Shown here in pieces: positions 3,250 through 54,651 of a stretch of DNA of 64,000 nt. A model generated the notes under the pieces. The model made no database searches. It saw only the letters and a list, made by a program, of their open reading frames with translations, and was not told where the DNA came from. The stretch's first letter is position 1. Each line of letters opens with the position of its first letter. Source of the stretch: Medicago truncatula (taxonomy: Eukaryota > Streptophyta > Magnoliopsida > Fabales > Fabaceae); NCBI RefSeq assembly GCF_003473485.1, contig NC_053043.1, forward strand, positions 41,268,576 through 41,332,575, in the 5' to 3' direction. The translations under genes were made by a program, and so were the position numbers.

Positions 3250-5425
3250 CGGTTTTGGTCAAACTCGCTATTTCATACGATACAAATTGGAAGACCAATT
3301 TTCAATTCTACAAATGATCTTCTTCACCAAAGGTTGACACTGAATAACATATAATTTTTTGGAGGACAAGGGGACCCTAAGGTACCTAAAAGGAAGCGCA
3401 CCTTTGATGAGGTTAAACTTAGTGACAATAGTATCTTGAACGCTCGTGGATACACCTCCCAAATAAATTGAGCTCTTAGCTTGATTAGCTTTAAGGCCAG
3501 AAGCAGCACTAAACAAGCTAAAAGCTTCAAAAAGCTGAGAGACAGAATCCACATCACCTCTAGAAAACAGCAGCAAATCATCAGCAAAACACACATGAAT
3601 TAAATTCAACCTTTTACATCTTGGGTGGAAGTGGAAAGCAACATTTTTCCTAAGCTGTAAAAGGCATCTGTTAAGATATTCCATACATATCACATAGAGA
3701 TATGGAGAGATAGGTCTCCTTGTCTAAGACCCTTCTTGGCAGCAAAAGGTCTAGTCAAATCTCCATTAACATTGTATGTATAGGAGGTAGTAGTAAGACA
3801 AGCCATCGCCTAATTTACAAACTTGCATGGAAAACCCATCTCAAGCATTAAATAGTTTATAAACGGTCATTCAACTGAATAATAAGCCTTCTGAAGATCA
3901 ATTTTCACCATGCACCTTGGAGAAATCCCTTTCCTACTATAACTTTTGACTAGTTCATGGCTTAAAATAATATTGTCAAAAATCACCCTTCCTTTGACAA
4001 AAAGCATATTGATTTTCACTAACAACACTATTTAAGACTCCTTGCATTCAACTTGTTAGAATTTTGGAAATAATCTTATATATCACTGAACAACAGGCAA
4101 TGGGCCTAAAATTCTTAACTGATGTATCATTAGCTTCTTTGGGTAGCAAAGTCACATAAGTATAGTTGATAATATTAGGCATGAAACCAGTCTTAAAGAA
4201 TTCTAATATAGCATCAATGACACTATCACCAATAATGTTCCAAGAGCATTTAAAGAAACGAACACTGTAACCATCAATACCTGGAGCCTTAGAAGAATCC
4301 ATGGAGAATAACGCATTTTTGACCTCCATGGTTGTGAACTCTGAGCACAACAAGTCTTGCTGATGCTGAGATAACATAGGACCTCTCTTGACGATATTTT
4401 TGTCCACCATAGGTAACGAATCAACAGAACTACCCATCAATTTTAAATAGAACCCTCTAATCTCCTCCTTGATGAGGTTATGCTTGTCAATTTTGGTGCC
4501 ATCTTCTGTTATGAGGAACTTAATGATATTCTGACATCTTCTTTCCTTTGCAAAGGCATGGAAAAATTTTGTGTTGAGTCCCCAAGCTGAATCCAATTAG
4601 CTCTAGATTTCTAGATCCATATCTGCTCCTCTATAGTACTCCACTTTTTAAGAGAGGACAAACAAACTTTTTCAGCTTCAATGAGATCAAGATTCATCGG
4701 ATCTGAACTAAGCTGCCTTTGGACATCAACTAAAGCAGTTCTAGCATCTTCAACTTTTTTGGTAGTACCTTGAAAATGTGTAGAATTTAACTCTTTTAGA
4801 TCTTTTTTCAAGGCTTTCAACTTGAACCATATATTAGTCAAGAGATTAGTATGCAAATTCTGACCCTATTTCTCCTGTATCAACGAAGGAAAAAAGATGA
4901 TGGTCAGTCAATACATTAATAAATAGGAAAGGAGTATTCTTTGGAGAAGCAGGACAAGACATATCCATACATATAGGACAGTGATCAGATACTCCTTTAG
5001 GAAGAACTTCACCCAGTGCATTGTTGAACCTTTGCAGCCAACTAGTGTTAGCAATAAATCTGTCTATCTTATAATAGATTCTATCTCCACTAGCTTGGTT
5101 ATTACACCATGTATAATGATCTCCGATTGTTCTCACTTCCGATAGCTTATTATGGAGCAGACATTCGGAAAAATCTTGAATATCATGTTCAGTCACTGGA
5201 TTACCATTAAGCCTATCATCAACCGTCAACACATTATTAAAGTTCCAAGGTATTAAAAGCATACACAGCTACAAAATTGAAACACTTATTTGAAGTTAGA
5301 TTAACAACTTCACAATGAATGGCTTGAGCACTAGAAGCAACAGGTTTGAGATCCAATACATTTGGATTCCAAGAGACCCAAATTCTTCCATTAGAGGCAC
5401 TATCATAATTATTAAGCATTGACCA
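3250..5425 (-). mobile_element. LINE fragment (endonuclease + RT)
   Basis: Read on the minus strand from 5419 down, the frames give part of an exonuclease-endonuclease-phosphatase domain (ending ...VSDHCPI), a linker, then an L1-type reverse transcriptase with APGIDGYSVRFFK, NFRPIACCSVIYKIISKIL and the catalytic FADDLLLF box near 3590. Successive pieces shift frame (5237-5419, 4846-5262, 4611-4856, 4048-4596, 3268-3693), so it is dead. The endonuclease N-terminus, the RNase H/zinc-finger tail and a poly(A) are missing, so both ends are truncated. It directly abuts the broken TIR exon at 5426 in the same orientation. Confidence 0.85.
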
Positions 5426-6809
5426 TAGCTAAATTGACCATAGCTCTTGTCCATCTCTCAACCTTACACGGATAATGTTTAAATTTATTTCTGTGTGAAA
5501 CAAAGGCATTCTGGTACACACCATTCTCTTTTCGTACATGAGATGGATCAATATCATAAAAAACAGGGAAAACTATTCGTTGCAAATCGTTACATCTTTC
5601 AACAATGGTAGCCATTTCTTCCAAACACCATGTTGACTCAGCATATCTTTCTGAGAAGACAACAATAGAAATCCGTGAATTTGTAATTGCTTGTCGATGT
5701 TGCGTTGAAAAGCATTCTCCTTTCTCTAGCCTTTTATCATCCTTGAAGGCGAAAACACCCTTTCTAGTTAGATGAGCATAAAGATGATCAACAAAAGTGT
5801 TACGGGTGTCAGCGCCTCTGAAACTGATAAACACATCGTATTTATAGCCATGCACTCCACTGGAATCAATGGAAGGACCAGAAAAAGTTGTACCTCGCTG
5901 GCCAGAATTGGAAAACGAAAAACGACCCAGCAGAGCCCGAAATGGTTGCAGGAGCAAGGACCTCCATGAGAACAACATGTCTGTTGTATATGAAATGAAC
6001 ATACATCTCATCAAATCAAATAATAATAAAAATGATATCCTAGGTTTGATAGATGGTATTTCCCTAGGACATGAGCAGAAAGAGAAACCTAGGATATTCA
6101 ATAAAAAAAATTACTCACTCTGTCCTTAATTATAAGATTATTTACAAAAAATTGTTTGTCTCTAGGACATGAGCAGAAAGAGAAACCTAGGGTACATTTG
6201 ATTAGCGAAAACTTGACTGAACAACTTCGGTTGCAATGTGTTTGATTGTAAAACTGTTCCAGGGACAAAACAAACTATGGGGCAAGAGACACGACAAAAA
6301 TTGAAATTTTTGTCCCTCGCTGAACAACAACACAACTTTCTGTCCCACAGTGGGACTCCCACTTGCCTTATGCCAAAATAGTCTTTTGTCCAACAAATAT
6401 CGTACAAGACAATTGTTCAACACCATAAAAGTTTGTCATGTGTTGTTATGTCTCATGTTGTGTTATCCTGCCTAATACTTACTTTTTAGCATATCAAACA
6501 CAAATTAAGACTATATACAAATTTCTAAATGTATTTATTCCACTTTTTTTAATACACTCCTAATTAATGCTATTAATTTGTAATATAAAAAATAACATCG
6601 AATGTATTTATATACAAATGATAAATTGCAACAGTCACATATTTAAGATAAGAGGATATATTACTCAGACAACTTTTCTAACTATCCGTGATTTTTGCCG
6701 TGAATTTTGTTAATGCTGTAAAAATGGACTGACAGAATATTATGAATCATATACAAATAGAGAAAATTTTATCTTTAAAAATTTCTGAAAATTTGGAGTT
6801 TGAATCCAT
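5426..6809 (-). pseudogene. TNL copy 1: TIR-only stub
   Basis: The TIR exon can start at ATG 5978 (MLFSWRS...) or at a splice acceptor just upstream of it. It carries a good TIR domain: YKYDVFISFRGADTRNTF, FKDDKRLEKGE, the conserved WCLEEM block whose second Glu corresponds to the TIR NADase glutamate, and FPVFYDIDPSHVRK. The frame leaves the paralogue after ERWTRAMVNL, where LINE sequence begins; no NBS or LRR exon follows. The remnant of the small upstream exon lies at 6785-6809 and still encodes MDSNSKFS, but its donor GT has become AA. Expression as a TIR-only protein cannot be excluded, but it reads as a truncated pseudogene. Confidence 0.8.
6063..6192. repeat. Local direct duplication flanking Stowaway remnant
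   Basis: A block of about 30 bp (CTAGGACATGAGCAGAAAGA onward) occurs at about 6063 and again at about 6163. Between them is the left end of a Stowaway-like MITE (CTCTGTCCTTAATTATAAG). The homologous place upstream of TNL copy 2 carries the full MITE, so copy 1 has lost most of it. Confidence 0.55.
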
Positions 6810-7238
6810 CTTATCTGAATTCCACTTTTTTTTTTTTTTTTGAAGAACGGTTCTTCTAACTATTCTGGGAGGATGAATTGTGTTTATGAGAAAGAAAGAA
6901 GCATTTATTGTGTTGGATGAATGAAGAAAAATGAATATAATGCAAAATACAGATTATTATTGTAAGAAGGTAAGTCAAAAATGTGGGTTCCACATCACAT
7001 GCATGATGCATACCTTAGTAGCAGTATCCTTGCTTCATTCATCGAAGAAGAGACGAGGAAATTATGATGATGATGATGATGAAGAAGAAAAGAAGGAAAA
7101 CGCGTAAGTGTATAATAATCAGTTTGACTTTGTTGTAAAGTGGATAAGGAGGAGACTTCAGAGTTAACAGTGCTAACAAATGTTAAGGCTCTCTGTTTGT
7201 GTTAAAAATAGAGAATACTGATGGTAAGCTTATTTATA

Positions 7239-9691: not shown

Positions 9692-10450
9692 TTAATGCAA
9701 ATCATCATCTATGTATGTGTTGAGTCCCATATCTGAGAGATGATTTTGTTTCACATTCACTTCCCTATTCTCATTTTCCTGTTCCTCCGTAACATGCCAG
9801 TTATAACGAAGTTTGATTTTAGGTTTTATCTCTACCTCAGTTTCATACCAGTTATAAGGAAGCTGGAGGTCAGGACTGCTGCTGCTGCTACTTTCATGTA
9901 CATGATCCAAGTGAAGATAGCGTTGATGTCGAACATCATCTATCCCCAACTCGGATGAGATAGAGATATCATGCTCGAGTACCTTGCATAATCCCCATCT
10001 TTTTATCTCCAGATAAGGGCAAGCTTTAAATGTGATATGTGCTCCTGTTGTTACAAAATGGCAGTGGGGTCTAGAGATATAGATTAGCCAGAGATGCTCT
10101 GAATTTGAGCCATCAACTATGTTCAGGTCAAACCGAAGCGGTATATCGAAAGTTTCTTCCATATGTTCACTTTCAAAAGAAAGATAAAGAGGATATGTAA
10201 GCTGAGAGGAAAATGAACGAAGTGAAAAACCAGACGTAGTTGAACCACAGTTTTCCACAAATGCCACACAAAAGGCAAAGCCGAGCCAGTTGTCAAACTC
10301 ATTTGTAAAGTCTGATATCTTTATTATTGAATTTCCCGTAAATTGATGATTAAACCATTCTGGAATTTTCTCCCCAGGAACAACAATGTCAAAACCACAC
10401 CGGAAATGATGAGGATTCTGCAGAAGATGAAAATAACACAAATTTATCAG

Positions 10451-10486
<36 letters not shown>

Positions 10487-13400
10487 CATATCAAGTGTGC
10501 ACCTCAACTAATCTCTCTAGCCATGAAAGTGCCAAGCTTTGACCTCCTTCTGCGATCTCCAAGAGGGGACAGTTGAAAATATATAATCCTGACCTATGAT
10601 TATGAGATCCAGATAACACTTTAAAATACCTTCCACCATATGAAGAAGTAGCACACAATTGGAGCTTAGGCAAAGATTGAAGCCAGCTGCAATGTGCCAA
10701 GTTTAAATATGCTAGACTGGAAAGCCTCTCCATTGAAGGTGGTAGGGAAACAAAGCTGTTTCCTTCAAGATTTAGCCTTTCTAAATGCCATAAATCTCCA
10801 ATAGCATCAGGAACTGTACTTAAATTGCAAAAGCTTAGGTCCAAAAAAATCAAAGACTCCAGATAGTAAGAGTGGTCAACAATTTCTCCAGAGACTGAAA
10901 AGTAGTCCATATTTTCAGCAGACACTGATACATTTCCCAAGGGTAGATTCTCTAGTCTTAAGCAGCCACATAAATCTAGAGTTACAAGAGATGTCATACA
11001 ATTAATGCTTTTGGGAATACTAACAAGATTTGTGCAGTCTCTTAAACTCAAGAACTTAAGCTGTGTAAGAACCGCAATAGATTGACCAATCGTTGATAAA
11101 CTCGAACATTGATCAACATCAAGATACTCAAGATTTGAGACCCCAGTAAAATCTGGCATGGTTTCAAGTTTTAGGCAGCCAGAGAGGTGTAGAACTTTGA
11201 GAGAATGTAAGTTAGATGCATCATCACCATCAAGAACTAGCCTGACCAAACTGCTGCAGCCTTCCAAACTCAAGAAAGCAAGTTTTTCCAGAAGTCCAAT
11301 GGACGGATGGACATACGATAGGTTTATGCATCCTGTAAAATCTAGACGTTCAAGTCTTCGGCTTCCATCAAAATTGGGAGTCTCCAGAAGATATTTGGAG
11401 TTGCTGAGATCCACCCTTTTCAAACAAGGGAGATCCTGTGAAAGACAGAATTAGCAATGAAATTTTAACAATTTTCAAACTTGAATATCATCAATTAACT
11501 TTGGCGTGCTTTGTTTAATTTTCATATAGAATCTGTGATTAATTTTTTCACTTGATGTGTATCTAAGAGTTCAATAAATTGAAATCAAATAATTGAAATA
11601 ACAATAAAAGTAAATTATCATTTTCAATGCAGTAGTTTATGTTTATTAATCAAGTCTTAGAGAAATGTAGGCAGAGCTCCCTATTTGAATAAAAAGAATA
11701 TGAGTAAACTTTATACTCCCCTCCTCTGAGAGAAGCTTTAACTACACTCCCTCCCCTCTTATGTTAAAATATACACTCCCCTCCCCTATGAGATGTTTGA
11801 ATTACAACCCCCTCCTTTATCGACTAACTCATCACTGTTGTTAGATTATTCTTAAGCTAAAAATAGAAAATAAAAGAAGTCATTAAAATACCTTGTGACC
11901 GTCCCATAGTCGTTGGATGCTGCTACAAGGCATATTCAATTCAACAAGACCAAATGGCTCAAAATTTAATGGCAAAGAAGCAAAAGGGTAACCATACCAA
12001 AGAAGATACTGCAAGCTGTTAGAAATGAAATTGAGACTTCCTGAAATTTTTTGATGATATAATATAAGAATTTTAAGTCCCCTCATTATTGACAATCCTT
12101 CGGCCCTCAGCGGAGGATATTCAGAGATATGCTCTTTTTTATTTAGAATAATGGCTTTAACATTGTTTGTTCCCTGAAAGTATTAAGAATAAACATATTA
12201 CAAACAGGGACAAAAACAAACTGCTTGAATAAATTTAAACTATTGAATGGGAAAGGAAGTTATTGTTGAACGATATATTTTGTTACCATCTCTGTCATCA
12301 TGACAGGGTAGAAATCCTCAAAAAGCCACAATCTACTCCACAATCCAGGTTCGCCAGGAAATTGTTGTCGAACTATTTTCTTTCCCAATTCTTGCAACAT
12401 TTCATGCATATGAATTTCCTGATTTCTAATAGTTACGAGTGACCTCTCAATCAAACTTTGAATGCCAATGTGAGGATGCAACCCACAAGCATCGAGAATT
12501 CGCTTCACATAATCTTCTTTCATTCCTTTAAAGAAACAGGCAATATGCAGAAATATTTCTTGGTCATCTAAATGTAATCCCTGCAAACTTACCTGAAGCA
12601 CGTCCATAACTTTGTTGTCTGGATTATTCCTCAATCTATACAAGGCATCTCTCCATTGGTTAGCATCTCGAGTGCACAAGAAAGACCCCACTACTCGAAC
12701 TGCCAATGGAAGACCTTGAGCATATTTTAGTACCTCAGGAGTGAGCTTTACACATCCGCTAGTGGGATCCTCACTTTTGAAAGCTTTTCTATAGAAAAGT
12801 TTACGGGCATCATTGCTATTCAATAGTGGAACCTCATACACATCGTACGACACACATGTATCGTGAGATACTGATAACTGAGCTCCAAACACTCTTAGAA
12901 TATGCATATCCCTGGTTGTAATGATCATTCTACTTCCTTTACCAAGCAATTCAGGATTTATAGCCAATTCTTCCATTTGTTCTAATAGATCAGCATTGTC
13001 AAGAACTACAAGAAACTTTTTGTTGCAAAGTCTTTTACGTACAATTCCAGATATTTCAGAAGGGCTGTATGTCTCTAGGTTTTTTTCACTTGTGGCTTGC
13101 CGAAGGATTTGTTTCTGTACAGCAGTGGCACCACCATCTTTATAAATTTTGCTTACATTCTCAATAAAACAGATTGCATCAAACTGATAGGAGACTCTAT
13201 CATACAAGACGGAAGCAAGAGTTGTCTTTCCGATTCCAGCCATCCCCCAAATACCTATAAAACGAAAGTCATCATTGTCTGAGTTTAATTTCAGAAGACT
13301 TTCTAATTCTTCTACTCGAGGTTGTATCCCGATAAGGTCATCAGCAAACCCTGAGAATTTATGACCCAATGTTTTTATTACCTGCTGAACAATATCTTGA

Positions 13401-15484
13401 ATCTCTCGAAACTCTGGCCTGAAAGAGAGAAGGATATAAACACTAAAATTATTAGCAAAGAAACAGTCAGAAAGTTAAGTTAGGATGAATATAATAACAA
13501 TTAATTTATTGATTTATATATGTTGACACATGTAAATAGATTTTGATCAAATGAGTCAATTACTTCTCTTGACAAAATAAACAGACTTGATTTGTAAAAT
13601 AGTTTGCTGCAAAGGAAAACTCAATTGAACACCAGAAATTCATGTCGAGAATGTAAAAAACCCAAAGAGAATATCAATAGCACTTACTTGTTCCTAACAT
13701 CCCAACCAACTATTTCAGTTAAATAGACCATAGCTTTCGTCCATCTCTCAACCTTATTCAGATCATGTTTCAATTTTTTCATGTGTGAAACAAAGGCATT
13801 CTGGTACACACCGTTCTGTTTTCGTACATGAGATGGATTGATATCATAAAAAACAGGGAAAACAGTTTGTAAGAAATTGCTACGACATTCAACAATAGTA
13901 GCCATTTCTTCCAAACACCATGTTGACTCAGCATATCTTTCTGAGAAGACAACGATAGATATCCGTGAATTTGCAATTGCTTGTCGAAGTTGCAGCGAAA
14001 GGCATTCTCCTTTCTCGAGCCTTTTATCATCCTTGAACGCAAAAATACCTTTTCTTGTTAGATGAGCATAAAGATGATCAACAAAAGTGTTGCGGGTGTC
14101 TGGACCTCTGAAACTGATAAACACGTCGTATTTATAGCTATGCACTCCACTGGAATCAATGGAAGAACCGGAAAAAGCTGTACCTCCTTGGCCCGAATTG
14201 GAAAATGACAAACGACCTAACAGAGCCCGAAATGGTTGCAGGAGCAAGGACCTCCATGAGAGCAAAATCTCTGTTGTACATGAAATGAAAATGCATCTCC
14301 TCTCATCAAGTCAAATAATCAAATCAAATAATAATAATAATGACAATAAAAGTGAACCTTCAATTCAGGGACCAAATAGAAAAGAGTGATAGTTTAAGGT
14401 CAGGGCTGCTGGGGCCGGATAATTTAGTCAAAATTTGAGTTTTTGGTGCTTCATTTGTTAAAAATATAATATAATTTGAAATGATTAGGAGTCCAATTGC
14501 ACTTTCTTTTTGTTAGGAGTCAATTTCTAATATTAGAACAAAACCTCCTTAGTGTTTGAGAGGATCCTATTTAGAGATCTTTATTCTGATAAACAAACAA
14601 ATGTTATGTGTAAAAATATTCATAGATTTTGATAGATGGTATTTCCCTAGCACATGAGCAGAAAGAGAAACCTAGTATATTCAATAAAAAATTACTCCCT
14701 CCGTCCTTAATTATAAGATTATTCACAAAAAATTGTTTGTCTCTAACTATAAAGGTATGTTTGATCTGCTATAAAAGGAGACATTATTGAACAACTCAGT
14801 TGTATTGTATTTGATTGTAAAACTGGAACAAACTAAGGGGCAAGTGTATTTAATTAATACTACTATCTTGCCTTGAAATATGAAAAGTCAAATTTAATAC
14901 AAATACAAATAAAAGACAATTTCGTAATATTATCACACAAAACATACACATTAACTACACTGACAACTTTTCTTAAGAAATGTGAAAAAAACAATGGGTG
15001 CCTACATTAAGGGATGAAGGGAGTATGTTAAATTTGATTTTTCATATTTCAAGATAAGTTAGCGGTATTAATTAGGGGTATGTTTAGGAAAAAATAATAA
15101 ATGTGTTTAGTAATTTGAAAAGATTTAGGGATAATATTTTTGTCAAATGGATGGATATATATAGGGACGGAGGGAGTAAATAGTTAAGGTTATTATAGAA
15201 AAAACACACAAAATTTCATCAAAAATAACAAAATTTATTTCATTTCTTGGTATGTGTAAATTTCTAAAAATCCATAAGTATTGTGAAATAGAGGGAGTAA
15301 CTAGTATCAGTCACACATATTTCCAGATAAATTTATTACTCAAACAACTTTTCAAAATATCCGTGATTTTTTGTTAAATGTTGTTATAAAAAATGGAGGG
15401 AGGGAGCATTATGAATCATATAAATAGGGAAAATTTCATTCATATTTAAATAATTTTACCTGAAAATTTGGAGTTTGAATCCAT
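9692..15484 (-). CDS. TNL copy 2: complete TIR-NBS-LRR
   Basis: Intracellular immune receptor. Inferred exons, all GT-AG: 15460-15484, 13688-14270, 12287-13418, 11892-12173, 10503-11435, 9692-10417; total 3681 bp, 1226 residues. Order: an 8-residue leader exon (MDSNSKFS), TIR (residues about 55-200; DVFISFRGPDTRNTF, WCLEEM with the NADase-position Glu), NB-ARC (P-loop GMAGIGKTT with Lys267, kinase-2 LVVLDNAD, RNBS-B GSRMIITTRD, GLPLAV, and MHE where MHD is usual), LRRs on exons 4-5, then a C-terminal jelly-roll/C-JID domain with GEKIPEWF. The TIR exon has no in-frame ATG before the domain: the position of the copy 1 ATG is ATT, and a TGA lies upstream at 14311-14313. The leader exon supplies the only in-frame ATG found. 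Intron 1 (1189 bp) holds a Stowaway MITE; intron 5 has an AG microsatellite at 10456-10487. Confidence 0.88.
11690..11860. repeat. CTCCCC-rich repeat in TNL copy 2 intron 4
   Basis: Motifs of the form ACACTCCCCTCCCCT recur about every 40-50 bp between exons 4 and 5 of TNL copy 2. It is probably the end of a small transposon; no clear termini are seen. Confidence 0.4.
14695..15176. mobile_element. Stowaway-like MITE in TNL intron 1
   Basis: The ends CTCCCTCCGTCC and, inverted, GACGGAGGGAG are flanked by TA on both sides, the Tc1/mariner target duplication. It lies inside the inferred first intron of TNL copy 2. GAAGGGAGTA near 15017 suggests a nested or duplicated end. Confidence 0.8.
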
Positions 15485-16343
15485 CTTATCTGAATTCAAC
15501 CGGAAGAACGGTTCTTCTAACTATTCTGGGAGGTTGAATTGTGTTTATGAGAAAGAAGCATTTAATGGGTTGGATGAATGAAGAAAAATGAATATAATGG
15601 GATTATATATTTTCAACCGGAAGAACCCTCTTTTTCCTTGCAAATTCTTCACTCCTTCATCGAAGAAGAGACTAGGAAATTACGATGATGATGAAGAATG
15701 AAAAGTATAATAATTAGTTTGACTTTGGTGTAAAGTTGATAAAAAAATATACTAGAGTTAACAGTGCTCACAAATGTTAAGGCTCTGTTTTGTGTTAAAA
15801 AACAGATAACAGCTTATTAAGTATTTTATAGCGGATAACAAATAAGTTAATCGATTAAATTTATATTGAAAGGTAAAATTAGCGGTTGAATCAGTAAAAT
15901 TAGTGTCTTGAAGATTACATGGGTAAAATTGAATAACTAATGATAAGTTCATCGTTAATCTATCCACTAATTAGTTCGTAAGTAAATGACGGTTATTAAA
16001 CGAGTCTTTTTTAGTTTTCAGTCGAATGAACTTATGCGTAATAAGTTCAAAAATGAATTTTTCCAAACAAATCCTAAAAGTACCTATAAAAAGCAAATGC
16101 TAAAAACAGTTTTGCATTAAAACAATATTTATACTTCTAAAAATTTCAATTCACCCCTTTCCAATACAATATTTTTATATGAAAAATGCTAACAAAGCAA
16201 GTATTAAAGATTTATTTATAGTAATTTTGTTTTAAAAGTCATATATTCCAATTTTAAAAAGTACAAAATTACTTTTTTTTTCCTTTCAAAATTTTGAGTT
16301 CCTTGGCATGTACCTTTAGGCACAAGTTAGCAAGAATTCTTTT
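15485..16343. other. Upstream flank of TNL copy 2
   Basis: No gene is seen. The stretch is alignable by eye to 6810-7467 plus 8801-9011 upstream of copy 1, apart from the two transposons inserted there. It therefore belongs to the duplicated TNL unit and probably contains the promoter. Confidence 0.6.
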
Positions 16344-16685
16344 GGCTTAGTTGCACTTTTGACCCTCTATCTTTTCAAAGTTGTGATTTTGGCCCCGTAA
16401 CTAATTAAAATACAAAACAACCCTCCATGTATTGGATCTTTGGCAGTTTTGGCCCCAAGGCTACTTTTGACTTAGTCTTCGTTGACATGGCACCCACAAT
16501 GGTCAACACGTGGCACTTCACTTAAGTGATGTGAGTGCCACGTCAGCGAAGACTAAGTCAAAAGTGGCCTTGGAGGCCAAAACTACCAAATATCCAATAC
16601 ATAGGGGGCTGTTTTGTATTTTAATTTGTTAGGGGGCCAAAATCGCAACTTTTGGAAAGATAGGGGCCAAAAGTGCAATTAAGCC
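16344..16685. mobile_element. Complete fold-back MITE, 9-bp TSD (Mutator-type)
   Basis: Two arms of about 150 bp are near-perfect inverted copies, from GGCTTAGTTGCACTTTTGAC to GTGCAATTAAGCC. AATTCTTTT flanks both sides (16335-16343 and 16686-16694), a perfect 9-bp duplication. The arms could form a long hairpin if transcribed. It is non-coding. Confidence 0.88.
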
Positions 16686-16914
16686 AATTCTTTTTTATAT
16701 TTACTTCAATAAGTTATTTTACTCCTTTTGTTAAAATAGAATAAATTATCAATTGTCCTATAAGTACAGTTCAGTAAGGGTAACAGAATAAAAGGAAATG
16801 TTCTACAAACCATCAGAAGCAACATATAAGACAAGCAGAAGAATCCAAAAGCAAAAAGGGTTATTCACCAACAGTATAAGGAATCAAGCCAACAAAGAAA
16901 ACAAAATTAGCAAC

Positions 16915-17410
16915 CATTAAGTAAAGGTTGAGAATTTATGAGCCAATGCTTTTATCACTGCCTCAACAATTTTTTCAATCTCCGCAGTCTGCAAATTCTG
17001 GCCTAAAAGAAAGAAAGATGATAAACTAAATTATCACCAAATTTACAGGAGAATAATAATATAATTTGATTATCAGCTAGTAAAACTCAACAAAACTTCA
17101 CTTATTCTTCTAAAGAATGTACAAAAAGTTAAGAGAAGAATGTATGACACTATCTCCTACATCAAATCCAACATATTAGCTTTCTTACATTGATGATCCC
17201 TGCCTGTTCGAGTTTGAATTTCTCAGTGTAAGAAGATGGATCTACTTCATAAATAGGGTAAACAGTTTGTTTCATTTTTGTTGCATTCGACAATAGCAAG
17301 AGTTCAGGTAGCCCGCACGACAACAGAATGTTGTCTTTTCGGTGCAAAAGGAAATATTGCAACTCGGTGCAGACTACTTCCTTGACTATGTTTTGCAACA
17401 ATTTATTTAG
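16915..17410 (-). pseudogene. TIR/NBS relic
   Basis: Positions 17162-17401 encode a decayed TIR segment (CGLPELLLLSNATKMKQTVY, then PIYEVDPSSYTEK) matching the middle of the TIR of the other copies. Positions 16921-17010 match the start of the NBS exon (a PEF-like start and EKIVEAVIKALAHKF, with a frame break). The intron between them is shortened. It has no complete domain. It lies between the flank of copy 2 and the 3' remnant of copy 3, and the equivalent 560-bp segment is missing at about 9387 in the other unit. Confidence 0.65.
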
Positions 17411-17721: not shown

Positions 17722-20700
17722 TTAATGCAAATCATCATTTATGTAGGTGTAAAGTCCCAAATTTGTTTTATAATGGTTGAGATCATTATTATTTAACTAA
17801 AATGAGAAAATGAAAGACATCATTAAAATACCTTGTGACCGTCCCATAGTCGTTGAATACTGCTATAAGGCATATTCAATTCAACAAGACAAAACGGCTC
17901 AAAATTTAATGGCAAAGAAGCAAAAGGGTAACCATACCACAGAAGATACTGCAAGCTGTTAGAAAGAAAAGTGAGACTTCCTGAAAAATTCTTATGAAAT
18001 AATAATATAAGAATTTTAAGTCCCCTCATTATTGACAATGCTTCAGCCCTCAACTGAGGATATTCAGAGATATGCTCTTTTTGATCTAGAATTATGGCAT
18101 TAATATTGTTTGTTCCCTGAAAACATTAAGATTAAACATGTTACAAGAGGTAAGGTGGAGGGGGGGTGGGAATCAAAATGGTTGAATAAATTTCAACTAT
18201 GAAATGGGAAAAGAAGTTTTAATTTTTTAAAAGGTATCTTGTTACCGTTTCTGTCATCATGACAGAGTAGAAATCATCATAAAGCCACAATCTACTCCAC
18301 GATCCTGGTTGGAAAGGAAACTGTTGCCGAACAATTTTCTTCCCTAATTCTTGCAACATTTCATGCATAAGAATTTCATTATTTCTAATAGTTATGAATG
18401 ACCTCTCAATCAAACTTTGAATTCCAATATGAGGGTGCAACCCACAAGCATCTAGAATTCGCTTCACATAATCTTCCTTCTCCCCTTTAAAGAAACAAGC
18501 AATATGCAGAAATATTTCTCGGTCCTCTGAATGTAATCCCTCAAAACTTACCTGAAGCACATCCATCACATTGTTGTCTGGATTATTCCTCAATCTATAC
18601 AAAGCATCTCTCCATTGGTTAGCATCTCGAGTGCACAAGAAAGACCCCACTACTCGAACAGCTAATGGAAGACCTTGAGCATATTTTAGTACCTCAGGAG
18701 TCAGCTTTACACATCCGCTAGTGGGATCCTCACTTTTGAAAGCTTTTCTATAGAAAAGTTTGCGGGCATCATTGCTATTCAATAGTGGAACCTCATACAC
18801 ATCGTACGACACACATGTATCGTGAGATACTGATAACTGAGCTCCAAACACTCAGAATATGCATATCCCTGGTTGTAATGATTATTCTACTTCCTTTACC
18901 AAGCAATTCAGGATTTATAGCCAATTCTTCCATTTGCTCTAATAGATCAGCATTGTCAAGGACTACAAGAAACTTTTTGTTGCAAAGTCTTTTACGTATA
19001 ATTCCAGATATTTCAGAAGGGCTGTATGTCTCTAGGTTTTTTTCATCTATGGTTTGCCGAAGGATTTGTTTCTGTACAGCAGTAGCACCGCCATCTTTAT
19101 AAATTTTGCTTACATTCTCAATAAAACAACTTGCATCAAACTGATAAGAGACTCTATCGTATAAGACAGAAGCAAGAGTTGTCTTTCTGATTCCAGCCAT
19201 CCCCCAAATGCCTATAGCTCGAAATTCATAATCCTTTGAGTCTAATTTCAAAAGGCTTTCTAATTCTTCTACTCGAGGTTGTATCCCAATAAGGTCATCA
19301 GCAAACCCCAAGAATTTATGACCCATTGTATTTATTACCTCCTGAACAATATTCTTAATCTCTCGAAACTCTGGCCTGAAAGAGAGGGAAATAAAACACT
19401 AAATTATTACCAAAGAAAACAAGCAGAAAGTCATGTCAGGACAAAAATAATAAGGATTACTTTATATATGCTAGCGCGTGAAGATTTGAAGATATGATAT
19501 TATGATGAAATGAGTTAATAACTTCTATCATAATTGATAATATTGTACAATTACTTCCAATGGGGGAGAATAAAATATACAGGCTTGATTTGTAAAGTAG
19601 TTTGCTGCACAAGAAAACTCAATTGAACACCACAAAGTCATGTCATGAATGTAAAATAATTCAAGAGAATAGACTTAACACTTACTTGTTCCTAACATCC
19701 CAACCGACTAATTTAGCCAAACTTTCCATAGCTCCCACCCATCTCATAACCTTATTTGGGTCATGTTTGAATTTATTCTGGAGTAGAACAAAGGCATTCT
19801 GGTACACCCCGCTCTGTTTTCGTACATGAGATGGATCGGCATCATAAAAAATAGGGAAAACAGTCTGTTTCAATTCTGTATGATATTCAGCAATAGTGGC
19901 CATCTCTTCCAAACATAATGTTGACTCCGCATAATTTTTAGAGAAGACAACAATAGAAATCCGAGAACTTTGAATTGCTTGTAGAAGTTGCGGCGAAAGG
20001 GATTCTCCTTTTTCAAGTCTTTTGTCATCCTTGAAAGCGAAAATACCCTTAGTTGTTAGATGAGCATGAAGATGATCAACAAAAGTGCTGCGGGTGTCAG
20101 CACCACGGAAACTGATAAACACATCATATCTATAGCTTTGGATGCTATTGGAATCACTGGAAGAACCTATATCTCCCTGACCCAAATGGATCAAATCGGA
20201 AGATGTCAAACGACTCTGTGGTCGAAACAGTGGCAGGAGCATGGACTTCTATGAGAGCAACATGTCTGGTGATATAAGAAATGAAAATGCATCTCATCAA
20301 TTAAATATTAATGACAATAAGAGTTAACTTTCAATTTAGTTCCTAGTCCCTGAACTATAAAAATACAATAAATAGTCCTTACAACATTCTCAATTCATCA
20401 TGTTTGTCCCTTATTTACTTTGAAAATAGGATAGAAACTGAAAGTAATAGTTCAGAGACTACTTTGATAGATTGAGAATAGTATAGGGACTTTTTATTAC
20501 ATTTATTTAGTTCAAGGACCAAAGAATAAAGTGGCGGTACGTAGTTTAGGAACCGAAATGAAGGCCTACTCTAAAAAACTAATGTTATATGTAAATTACT
20601 GAATAAACCATCAATTTGATCCTTAAACTAGCACTTTCTCTCCAAGTTAGTCCCCATACTGTATAAATATAGTCAATAGTGCTTAACCATGGGAAATCCA

Positions 20701-21022
20701 TTAATTTAGTTCTTAAAGTATATGAAAATCAATCAGTTTAGTTTAGTCTCTAACATCCTATGTAGCACAGACTACGACACCGACAGGTCGACATTGCTTA
20801 TGTAAAAAAACACTCGACATCAACACCGATACATAAAAAAATTTATTATAATAATTAAATAAATGAATTACATAATTTAGAGAAAGCAGTGGTTTTCTTC
20901 ATGAATAAGCAGTAAAGAGTAAAATAAATGATATAAATAAATAAAACGGGGCAAACAAAAACCTCATATAGTATGGTAAGAAGTTTAATGATTTTACCTG
21001 AAAATTTTGACTTTGAATCCAT
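17722..21022 (-). pseudogene. TNL copy 3: disrupted TIR-NBS, LRR lost
   Basis: Inferred exons: leader 20998-21022 (MDSKSKFS), TIR 19686-20265 (usable ATG at 20242), NBS 18246-19375, exon at 17832-18116, then only the extreme 3' end of the last exon (about 17722-17765). The NBS exon is 1130 bp against 1132 in copy 2 because two bases are missing near 18852, shifting frame after IITTRDMHIL. The P-loop reads GMAGIRKTT: the Gly before the catalytic Lys is Arg (codon 19186-19188). The leader exon, if spliced, runs into TAG at 20249-20251, where copy 2 has TGG (Trp). The LRR exon and most of the C-JID exon are deleted, with a junction near 17765-17790. The downstream GLPLAV and MHEMLQELGK region is still well preserved, so the damage looks fairly recent. 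Confidence 0.85.
20330..20572. mobile_element. Fold-back MITE in TNL copy 3 intron 1
   Basis: The left part (CAATTTAGTTCCTAGTCCCT...TAGTCCTTA) is matched in inverted form by the right part (AGTTTAGGAACCGAAATGAAG, with AGGGACTTTTTATT further in). It lies between the leader and TIR exons of copy 3. No clear TSD is seen. Related TAGTCC-type pieces continue to about 20760. Confidence 0.5.
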
Positions 21023-53019: not shown

Positions 53020-53850
53020 CTAGGCATCAATCCCAAGGTGAGACACATCACCTTTTTCTTCCTCCAAACAACACCACACCATCAGAGCACCCGCATCCTC
53101 ATAACCCTCAGAGACAATTTGTGCGGAATTACCATTAATCTTCGGACAATCCTTCTTGAAGTGACCCATCTTGTGACAGTTAAAGCATTCAAACCTTGAC
53201 TTGTTTCCACTCTTTCTCCGGTTACCTCTACCTCCACCATTCCCTCTTGTGACACTTAGGCCCTCACCGTGTTCATGAGTCAAGTCCTTGGACTTGGTCA
53301 AATCCTTGGTTCTCAAAGCTGCTTGAACTTCTTCCAAGGTAACAGTGCCTTCCTTGCCATAGAGCATGGTATCTTTGAACGATTCAAAAGATTTCGGTAG
53401 AGCACACAACAAGAGTATAGCTTTATCCTCGTCCTCAAGTTGCACCTCAATATTCTCCAAGTCATCTAGGATTTTGTTGAACTCCGTAAGTTGCTCCATG
53501 ATGGCCTTTGACTCTACCATCCTGAATGAGTAGAGTTGTTGCTTTAGGAATTGCCGATGAGCCAAAGACTTTGTCATATATAAAGATTCCAACTTTGCCC
53601 ACATCGATGCCGCGGTTGCTTCCTTTGCTACTTCTCTCAAAACTTTATCCCCGAGGCACAAGACAACGGCACTCCTGGCCTTGTCCACCATCTTGGTCTT
53701 CTCCGCTCGTGACATGGTGACCGGTAACGAACCTTCACCCTTCAAAGCTTTCTCACACTTCTGCTGTATTAACACCGCTTCCATCTTTACCTTCCATAAC
53801 CCGAAATCGTTATCTCCGGTAAACTTCTCGATATCCCACTTTGAACCCAT
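53020..53850 (-). CDS. Gag protein of LTR retrotransposon
   Basis: A 276-residue intact frame starting at ATG 53850, shortly after the primer-site-like sequence. The N-terminus WDIEKFTGDNDFGLWKVKME and the region to about residue 170 match the copia gag (UBN2/retrotran_gag) type. A basic stretch and a CCHC zinc knuckle, CFNCHKMGHFKKDC, bind nucleic acid in this family. It would package the element's RNA. The protease that normally follows is absent; the frame ends soon after the knuckle. Confidence 0.85.
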   Translation of the reverse strand: MGSKWDIEKFTGDNDFGLWKVKMEAVLIQQKCEKALKGEGSLPVTMSRAEKTKMVDKARSAVVLCLGDKVLREVAKEATAASMWAKLESLYMTKSLAHRQFLKQQLYSFRMVESKAIMEQLTEFNKILDDLENIEVQLEDEDKAILLLCALPKSFESFKDTMLYGKEGTVTLEEVQAALRTKDLTKSKDLTHEHGEGLSVTRGNGGGRGNRRKSGNKSRFECFNCHKMGHFKKDCPKINGNSAQIVSEGYEDAGALMVWCCLEEEKGDVSHLGIDA

Positions 53851-54651
53851 GATACTTAATTATCCTTCGATCCTTGCCCCACGGTGGGCGCCAATTGTTG
53901 TGAATCTGATCAAAAATCACACCAATAACAACTTGATGTGTGGAGCAAGAGATAATTAAGCAACCAAAACAAAGCGTATGGAATAATTAAATACAAGTCA
54001 AAAGTAGAAAACAACGGCGAGAAGAACAAAAGAAGAACACAAAGATATTTGTTGACCCAGTTCGGTCCAATCTGACCTAGTCTGGGGGAGAGAGCAGCCC
54101 TCCAATCCACTATATGATGAGTTTCGTTACAAAGAGAAATCAACGGGTTACAAGAATAAGTCTCCCACCTAATTCTACCCAAAGTCCCAATCTCTTCCCG
54201 TAACCAAGAGACTCCAATCCTAATAGTGTTTCCCAAGGTGAATCAACCCACAAACCCTAGTGTTTGCTCCTAAGAGACAAACTCTATATAAACCCTAGTT
54301 TTGTTGTTGCTTTTCTAAACCCTTGTTTCAGCCCCCTCTATCTCTCTCTCTCTCTCTCAAAGTTTAGCCTTATACAAGGTCTATATTTATAGTAAAAGTA
54401 TAACTCATAAATTTGGAGCAAATACCACACTGAAGATTCGTTTTTTTTTCTCCTTCAGTGAAAGAATATTTGCATCAAAAATATAATATTCTCTTTCAAA
54501 ATATATTTGCATCAAATCGTTCTTTATACGATACAAAAATATATTTATTGTCCATAAATATATTTTCAGCACAAAATATATTTGAAACAAATCTTTTATA
54601 TTTTTAGCAACAATATTCTTCATCCATCAAATTTTGAGTCATACTACAACA

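Follow-up and report, generated by a model that had tools for sequence, protein, structure and literature searches.

A candidate short initial coding exon ahead of the TIR exon in a TNL-type receptor gene

Flax L6 and M are both TNLs. In the accessible part of PMC3801107, the two carry N-terminal leaders that are predicted to be hydrophobic signal anchors. For the rose Rdr1 family, the available text of PMC6977733 places the TIR domain in the first exon, the NBS in the next, and the LRR in the exons thereafter; the excerpt at hand for the peach TNLs Rm1/Rm2 (PMC9408794) likewise has TIR in the first exon and NBS next, followed by LRR and post-LRR exons. The plant microexons missed by annotation in the accessible sections of PMC8831610 are internal and 1-15 nt long (at most 51 nt under wider definitions). 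Finally, Table 2 of PMC4881053 counts legume R genes that "lack start codon" (97 in soybean, 90 in barrel clover, and 26 in chickpea); in the available text of that paper such genes are treated as putatively functional, and evolutionary causes and assembly errors are named in general terms.

Three copies of a TNL gene (copies 1-3) were compared in the window, i.e. the whole stretch of 64,000 nucleotides that was analysed. Judging from its DNA, copy 2 looks like a structurally complete TNL-type receptor gene, short of a start unless a further exon (exon 1) exists ahead of the TIR exon. With this exon included, six exons on the minus strand join to 3681 nt and 1226 residues with a terminal stop only. 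The later exons were placed by open frames, the usual exon order of the family, and GT-AG borders. The features of copy 2 are as follows (a slash within a motif marks the exon border).

15824..15830, minus strand: TATA-like TATAAAA, aligned with TATAAAT of copy 1 (7238)
15460..15484, minus strand: proposed coding part of exon 1, 25 nt, encoding MDSNSKFS and the opening base of a split codon; AAGATGG around the ATG
15454..15459, minus strand: exon 1 donor GTAAAA (CAG/GTAAAA), top donor score within 15830-13901
14271..15459, minus strand: intron 1, 1189 bp, with MITE-like inverted repeats
13688..14270, minus strand: exon 2, short leader and TIR domain; acceptor CAACAG/AG, donor ACAA/GTAAGT
12287..13418, minus strand: exon 3, NB-ARC and winged helix (Roq1-like)
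11892..12173, minus strand: exon 4, following the winged helix and preceding the LRR exon; named start of the LRR region from its position only
10503..11435, minus strand: exon 5, LRR
9692..10417, minus strand: exon 6, post-LRR C-JID domain and stop

Two more TATA-like matches occur in copy 2, at 15865 and 15609. A frame-by-frame scan of copy 2 detected the TIR domain (PF01582, E 7.8e-45), NB-ARC (PF00931, E 5.6e-27), the winged helix (PF23282, E 9.9e-25), LRR families, and the post-LRR C-JID domain (PF20160, E 3.9e-13), so that TIR, NB-ARC with winged helix, and LRR with C-JID are all present as expected of a TIR-NBS-LRR member. By sequence, the solved chains nearest to the TIR-exon frame were those of Roq1, RPV1, and RUN1, Roq1 being the best PDB match (E 1.9e-44). 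As far as the available rose and peach descriptions go, copy 2 resembles Rdr1 and Rm1/Rm2 in having TIR and NBS in successive exons with the LRR (and, as in peach, the post-LRR domain) after them. It differs in that the first exon holds the TIR domain in those genes, whereas a proposed 25-nt coding segment lies ahead of the TIR exon in copy 2; in the best model, read from DNA alone, its TIR exon is not the first coding exon as in the canonical TNL layout. A coding exon in this place is a layout variant and not a new system. Among the matches listed in a literature search of titles and abstract openings, none was recognised as describing a coding exon that precedes a TIR exon, which is no evidence of novelty since most subscription journals lie outside that coverage; peptide strings likewise returned no matching papers in the literature search. 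Scans for relatives yielded 7 pattern stretches in viral contigs and 42 in prokaryote contigs, none of them confirmed in either set, and say nothing about plants.

A 32-nt (CT)n run was also noted at 10454-10485, in the intron directly 5′ of the C-JID (post-LRR) exon of copy 2. In Prunus Ma orthologues, dinucleotide repeats are said to precede each post-LRR exon, according to the accessible portion of PMC6141779.

The open TIR frame of copy 2 (14310-13684, minus strand) is preceded immediately by TGA at 14313-14311 and contains no in-frame ATG ahead of the TIR core; ATT at 14268-14266 occupies the site of ATG 5978-5976 in copy 1. All three points (no in-frame ATG, ATT for ATG, and TGA at 14311-14313) had been made in the first-pass annotation and match the sequence letter by letter. 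It had also proposed that an ATG frame about 1.2 kb upstream, ending at a CAG/GTAAAA donor, restores the frame when spliced to the acceptor at 14270/14271. We found ATGGATTCAAACTCCAAATTTTCAG at 15484-15460 (minus strand), followed by GTAAAA, and the acceptor CAACAG/AG at 14271/14270. Splicing from 15460/15459 removes 1189 bp and gives a joined frame that starts MDSNSKFSEILLSW and runs through all 1226 residues without an internal stop.

With a probability of about 0.82, copy 2 is a TNL gene that starts in a short initial exon ancestral to the three copies and is now fully dependent on it; its transcription, splicing, and translation we infer from the DNA. Translation of copy 2 would begin in an exon composed of 5′UTR and 25 coding nt, the pre-mRNA would be spliced from CAG/GTAAAA at 15460/15459 to the acceptor at 14271/14270, and the protein would start MDSNSKFSEILLSWRSLLLQPF. 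The common ancestor of copies 1-3 would already have had this exon. Subsequently, the internal ATG just past the junction would have become ATT in copy 2, leaving it fully dependent on exon 1; copy 1 would have lost the donor, and copy 3 has a stop. Exon 1 is most likely an ordinary short initial coding exon, and the hidden start exon postulated earlier emerged as the best-supported model for copy 2, given the site scores, the start context, the phase, and a sequence block conserved with a diverged paralogue.

Intron 1 contains two sets of inverted-repeat arms, at 14685-14715 / 15156-15186 (with TACTCCCTCCGTCC) and at 14851-14897 / 15028-15074, which we regard as MITE-like. These repeats may account for part of the distance between exon 1 and the TIR exon.

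Donors were scored with a matrix of approximate plant weights and acceptors on a rough scale of our own. CAG/GTAAAA scored 4.81 and was the top-ranked donor within 15830-13901 of copy 2 as well as within 21300-19951 of copy 3; the donors of three further copy 2 introns, out of four, scored 3.71, 1.61, and 3.52. The acceptor at 14270 (5.10) had the highest score among the 14 AGs from 14360 to 14121, and the corresponding copy 3 acceptor at 20265 (7.35) was also first of 14. Three scores count against the exon-1 model. The acceptor at 14270 is weaker than four acceptors that were placed by homology in this family and scored 7.0 to 9.25, one of which belongs to copy 3; in copy 1, the acceptor at 5980 (4.15) ranked third of 8, and the best donor is located at 7013 (5.0) and not at the exon-1 site. 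When the DNA upstream in copy 2 (15800-14272) was put through 2000 dinucleotide shuffles, a donor this good arose in 17%, such a donor behind any phase-matched ATG frame in 2.55%, and the same in strong context in 0.2%; the respective values for copy 3 (21250-20267, 2000 dinucleotide shuffles) were 20.2%, 3.45%, and 0.55%, all under criteria that were fixed once the candidate was already known. The arrangement of ATG and donor in exon 1 of copy 2 is more than chance.

Imposing a donor score of at least 0 and allowing a single intron, eight starts were enumerated for copy 2. Six of them use exon 1, and the proposed join of 15460 to 14270 had the top summed score; the remaining two begin at 14306 (donor 0.98, acceptors 0.4 and -3.0). 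Exon 1 could be real while copy 2 splices to a later in-phase acceptor, at 14216 or 14186, with a shorter leader. Both joins stay open, but their acceptor scores are 2.25 and 1.4 as compared with 5.1, and the leader preceding the TIR domain shows a dN/dS of 0.38 between copies 1 and 2 (few changes, i.e. 6 silent and 7 replacement differences), equal to the TIR part, with 1.01 and 1.17 in the comparisons with copy 3. We regard such a shortened leader as very unlikely. Copy 2 might also start in some other upstream exon or by way of two introns, the ATG at 15484 being bypassed. The enumeration covered single-intron starts, and copy 1 has its strong donor at 7013 upstream of the exon-1 ATG, both of which leave room for such a start; however, the 7013 donor is not kept in copy 2, where no other donor listed upstream of the TIR exon exceeded about 1.0, and we consider this possibility the most improbable of all those discussed here.

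Around this donor (AAG/GTATGC), copy 1 carries six ATGs at 6995-7042. A clear copy 2 equivalent exists for the first of them (7042, corresponding to 15660) but not for the other five. Copy 1 may once have had a 5′UTR intron.

The comparison between copies involved the following features.

15446..15513, minus strand: 68-bp block of copy 2, matching copy 3 21051-20984 at 57/68 positions; covers the final bases ahead of the ATG, the exon, and the donor
6785..6809, minus strand: 25-nt frame of copy 1, identical to copy 2 (25/25); donor lost (CAG/AAAT)
5421..5980, minus strand: TIR exon of copy 1; acceptor AG kept, internal ATG at 5978, 3′ end truncated
20998..21022, minus strand: 25-nt frame of copy 3, MDSKSKFS (23/25); donor CAG/GTAAAA kept
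19686..20265, minus strand: TIR exon of copy 3; acceptor intact, TAG ends the joined frame after DMLLS

Of the three, copy 3 has diverged furthest: its TIR dS is 0.36 against copy 2 and 0.49 against copy 1, the value between copies 1 and 2 being 0.27. When the TIR exon was excluded, the 68-bp block was the best local alignment that copies 2 and 3 gave in their upstream DNA, with a score of 81 (best of 300 shuffles, 44) and a BLAST E of 3.2e-14. The next strong block shared by these copies starts at 14368, lying 98 bp ahead of the acceptor; their other upstream or intron matches were weak (E 0.013 or more), a relic at 16982-16931 excepted. Between copies 1 and 3, BLAST recovered not just the exon block (E 9.6e-9) but another one farther upstream (6939-6888, E 5e-4). 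Conservation therefore takes in some of the 5′UTR, and this extension beyond the exon counts against the exon-1 model. Where their upstream parts align, copies 1 and 2 are identical for at most 38 nt in a row, a stretch that ends at the exon border; the 5′UTR itself has identical runs of 31, 31, and 23 nt, the overall ungapped identity is 418/526, and the likeness of these two copies taken alone would be weak evidence for exon 1. All three copies share the start context AAGATGG, and the two earlier ATGs of copy 2 (15660 and 15561, from 15800 on) have T at -3. Copies 2 and 3 differ at two positions of exon 1, one silent and one changing N to K, which is too few to test coding constraint.

The earlier suggestion of a short frame still present in copies 1 and 3 stands for the 25 nt and fails for the spliced frame. 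Copy 1 is without GTA of the donor (CAG/AAAT), a loss that is most simply derived because GTAAAA is common to copies 2 and 3. Copy 3 has kept donor, acceptor, and phase, yet its joined frame reads MDSKSKFSDMLLS-stop, ending five residues past the join. From their sequences, both copies look degenerate. Since neither still encodes the spliced start, which also counts against the exon-1 model, they bear on the ancestor and not on present use. The exon-1 ATG begins none of the best 8 of 15 single-intron starts in copy 1 and none of the best 8 of 73 open ones in copy 3, as the lost donor and the stop, respectively, would lead one to expect.

A rescue of copy 3 by alternative single-intron starts was considered as well. 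The exon-1 donor is used in 7 of the best 8 of 73, and none of these 8 has both strong-context bases; copy 3 also has RKTT at its P-loop and an NBS divided over two frames, and a rescue is disfavoured.

Directly after the acceptor, copies 1 and 3 read AC ATG TTG and copy 2 reads AG ATT TTG, so by parsimony the change from ATG to ATT would have occurred in copy 2. With the start in exon 1, this change replaces an internal M by I; with the start at the internal ATG, it leaves copy 2 broken. Copies 1 and 3 both have ATG at this codon, a possible ancestral start that as such counts against the exon-1 model. The upstream exon would then be 5′UTR with a small upstream frame, and copy 2 would be dead or use a non-AUG start. 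Beginning from the internal ATG, the leader of copy 1 has no acidic residue among its first 30, a further point in favour. Against this stands the upstream ATG, which has the stronger context, is conserved in 3/3 copies, and has the correct phase in the two copies with a donor. Moreover, copy 2 is open across all six exons, which is unexpected in a long-dead gene, and in copy 3 a TAG follows four codons after the internal ATG (MLLS), breaking that start too. As copy 2 has open exons, a better context at the upstream ATG, and a conserved donor, we favour the exon-1 start, and an ancestral start at the internal ATG appears improbable.

An ancestor of the cluster with two starts, one in exon 1 (MDSNSKFS, acidic residues) and one at the internal ATG (a leader with arginine but no acidic residue, MLFSWRSLLLQPFRALLGRFSFSNS in copy 1), is likewise improbable. 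Here, the choice of start could alter receptor location, and copy 2 would have become fixed to the long form. A hydrophobic-moment calculation, too coarse for assigning a compartment and set aside here, gave the copy 2 leader with exon 1 a value of 0.43 and the copy 1 leader that begins at the internal ATG one of 0.31.

If exon 1 serves as the start, the 5′ end of one plant immune-receptor gene model would be corrected, a result of modest reach. Like the flax L6 and M proteins, copy 2 would have a short N-terminal leader before the TIR domain; in the accessible part of PMC3801107 the flax leaders are predicted hydrophobic anchors, whereas the likeness of copy 2 is one of leader position only. 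Exon 1 and the plant microexons in the accessible sections of PMC8831610 are both short conserved coding exons that gene models could omit. Those microexons are internal, however, whereas the proposed exon 1 is initial and has 25 coding nt plus 5′UTR, and is therefore not a microexon in that sense. Without a usable start in its TIR exon, copy 2 could fall into the "lack start codon" class as it appears in the available part of PMC4881053. Should such exons be common among relatives, some R genes of that class could be complete. Likewise, constructs made from the TIR exon alone would be without the native N-terminus if exon 1 is true.

Several further elements were noted in the window. A relic of a fourth TNL copy at 16918-17002 retains an acceptor and, from 17002 on, the beginning of an NBS exon that runs for nine codons to an in-frame stop. 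Upstream of copy 2, a MITE-like element with nested inverted repeats extends over 16342-16687, with these arms.

16342-16365 / 16664-16687: nested arms, first pair
16377-16454 / 16575-16652: nested arms, second pair
16447-16498 / 16530-16581: nested arms, third pair

A reverse-transcriptase fragment (3268-3723, minus strand) lies about 1.7 kb beyond the TIR exon of copy 1, and a copia-type gag frame was found at 53020-53859 (minus strand).
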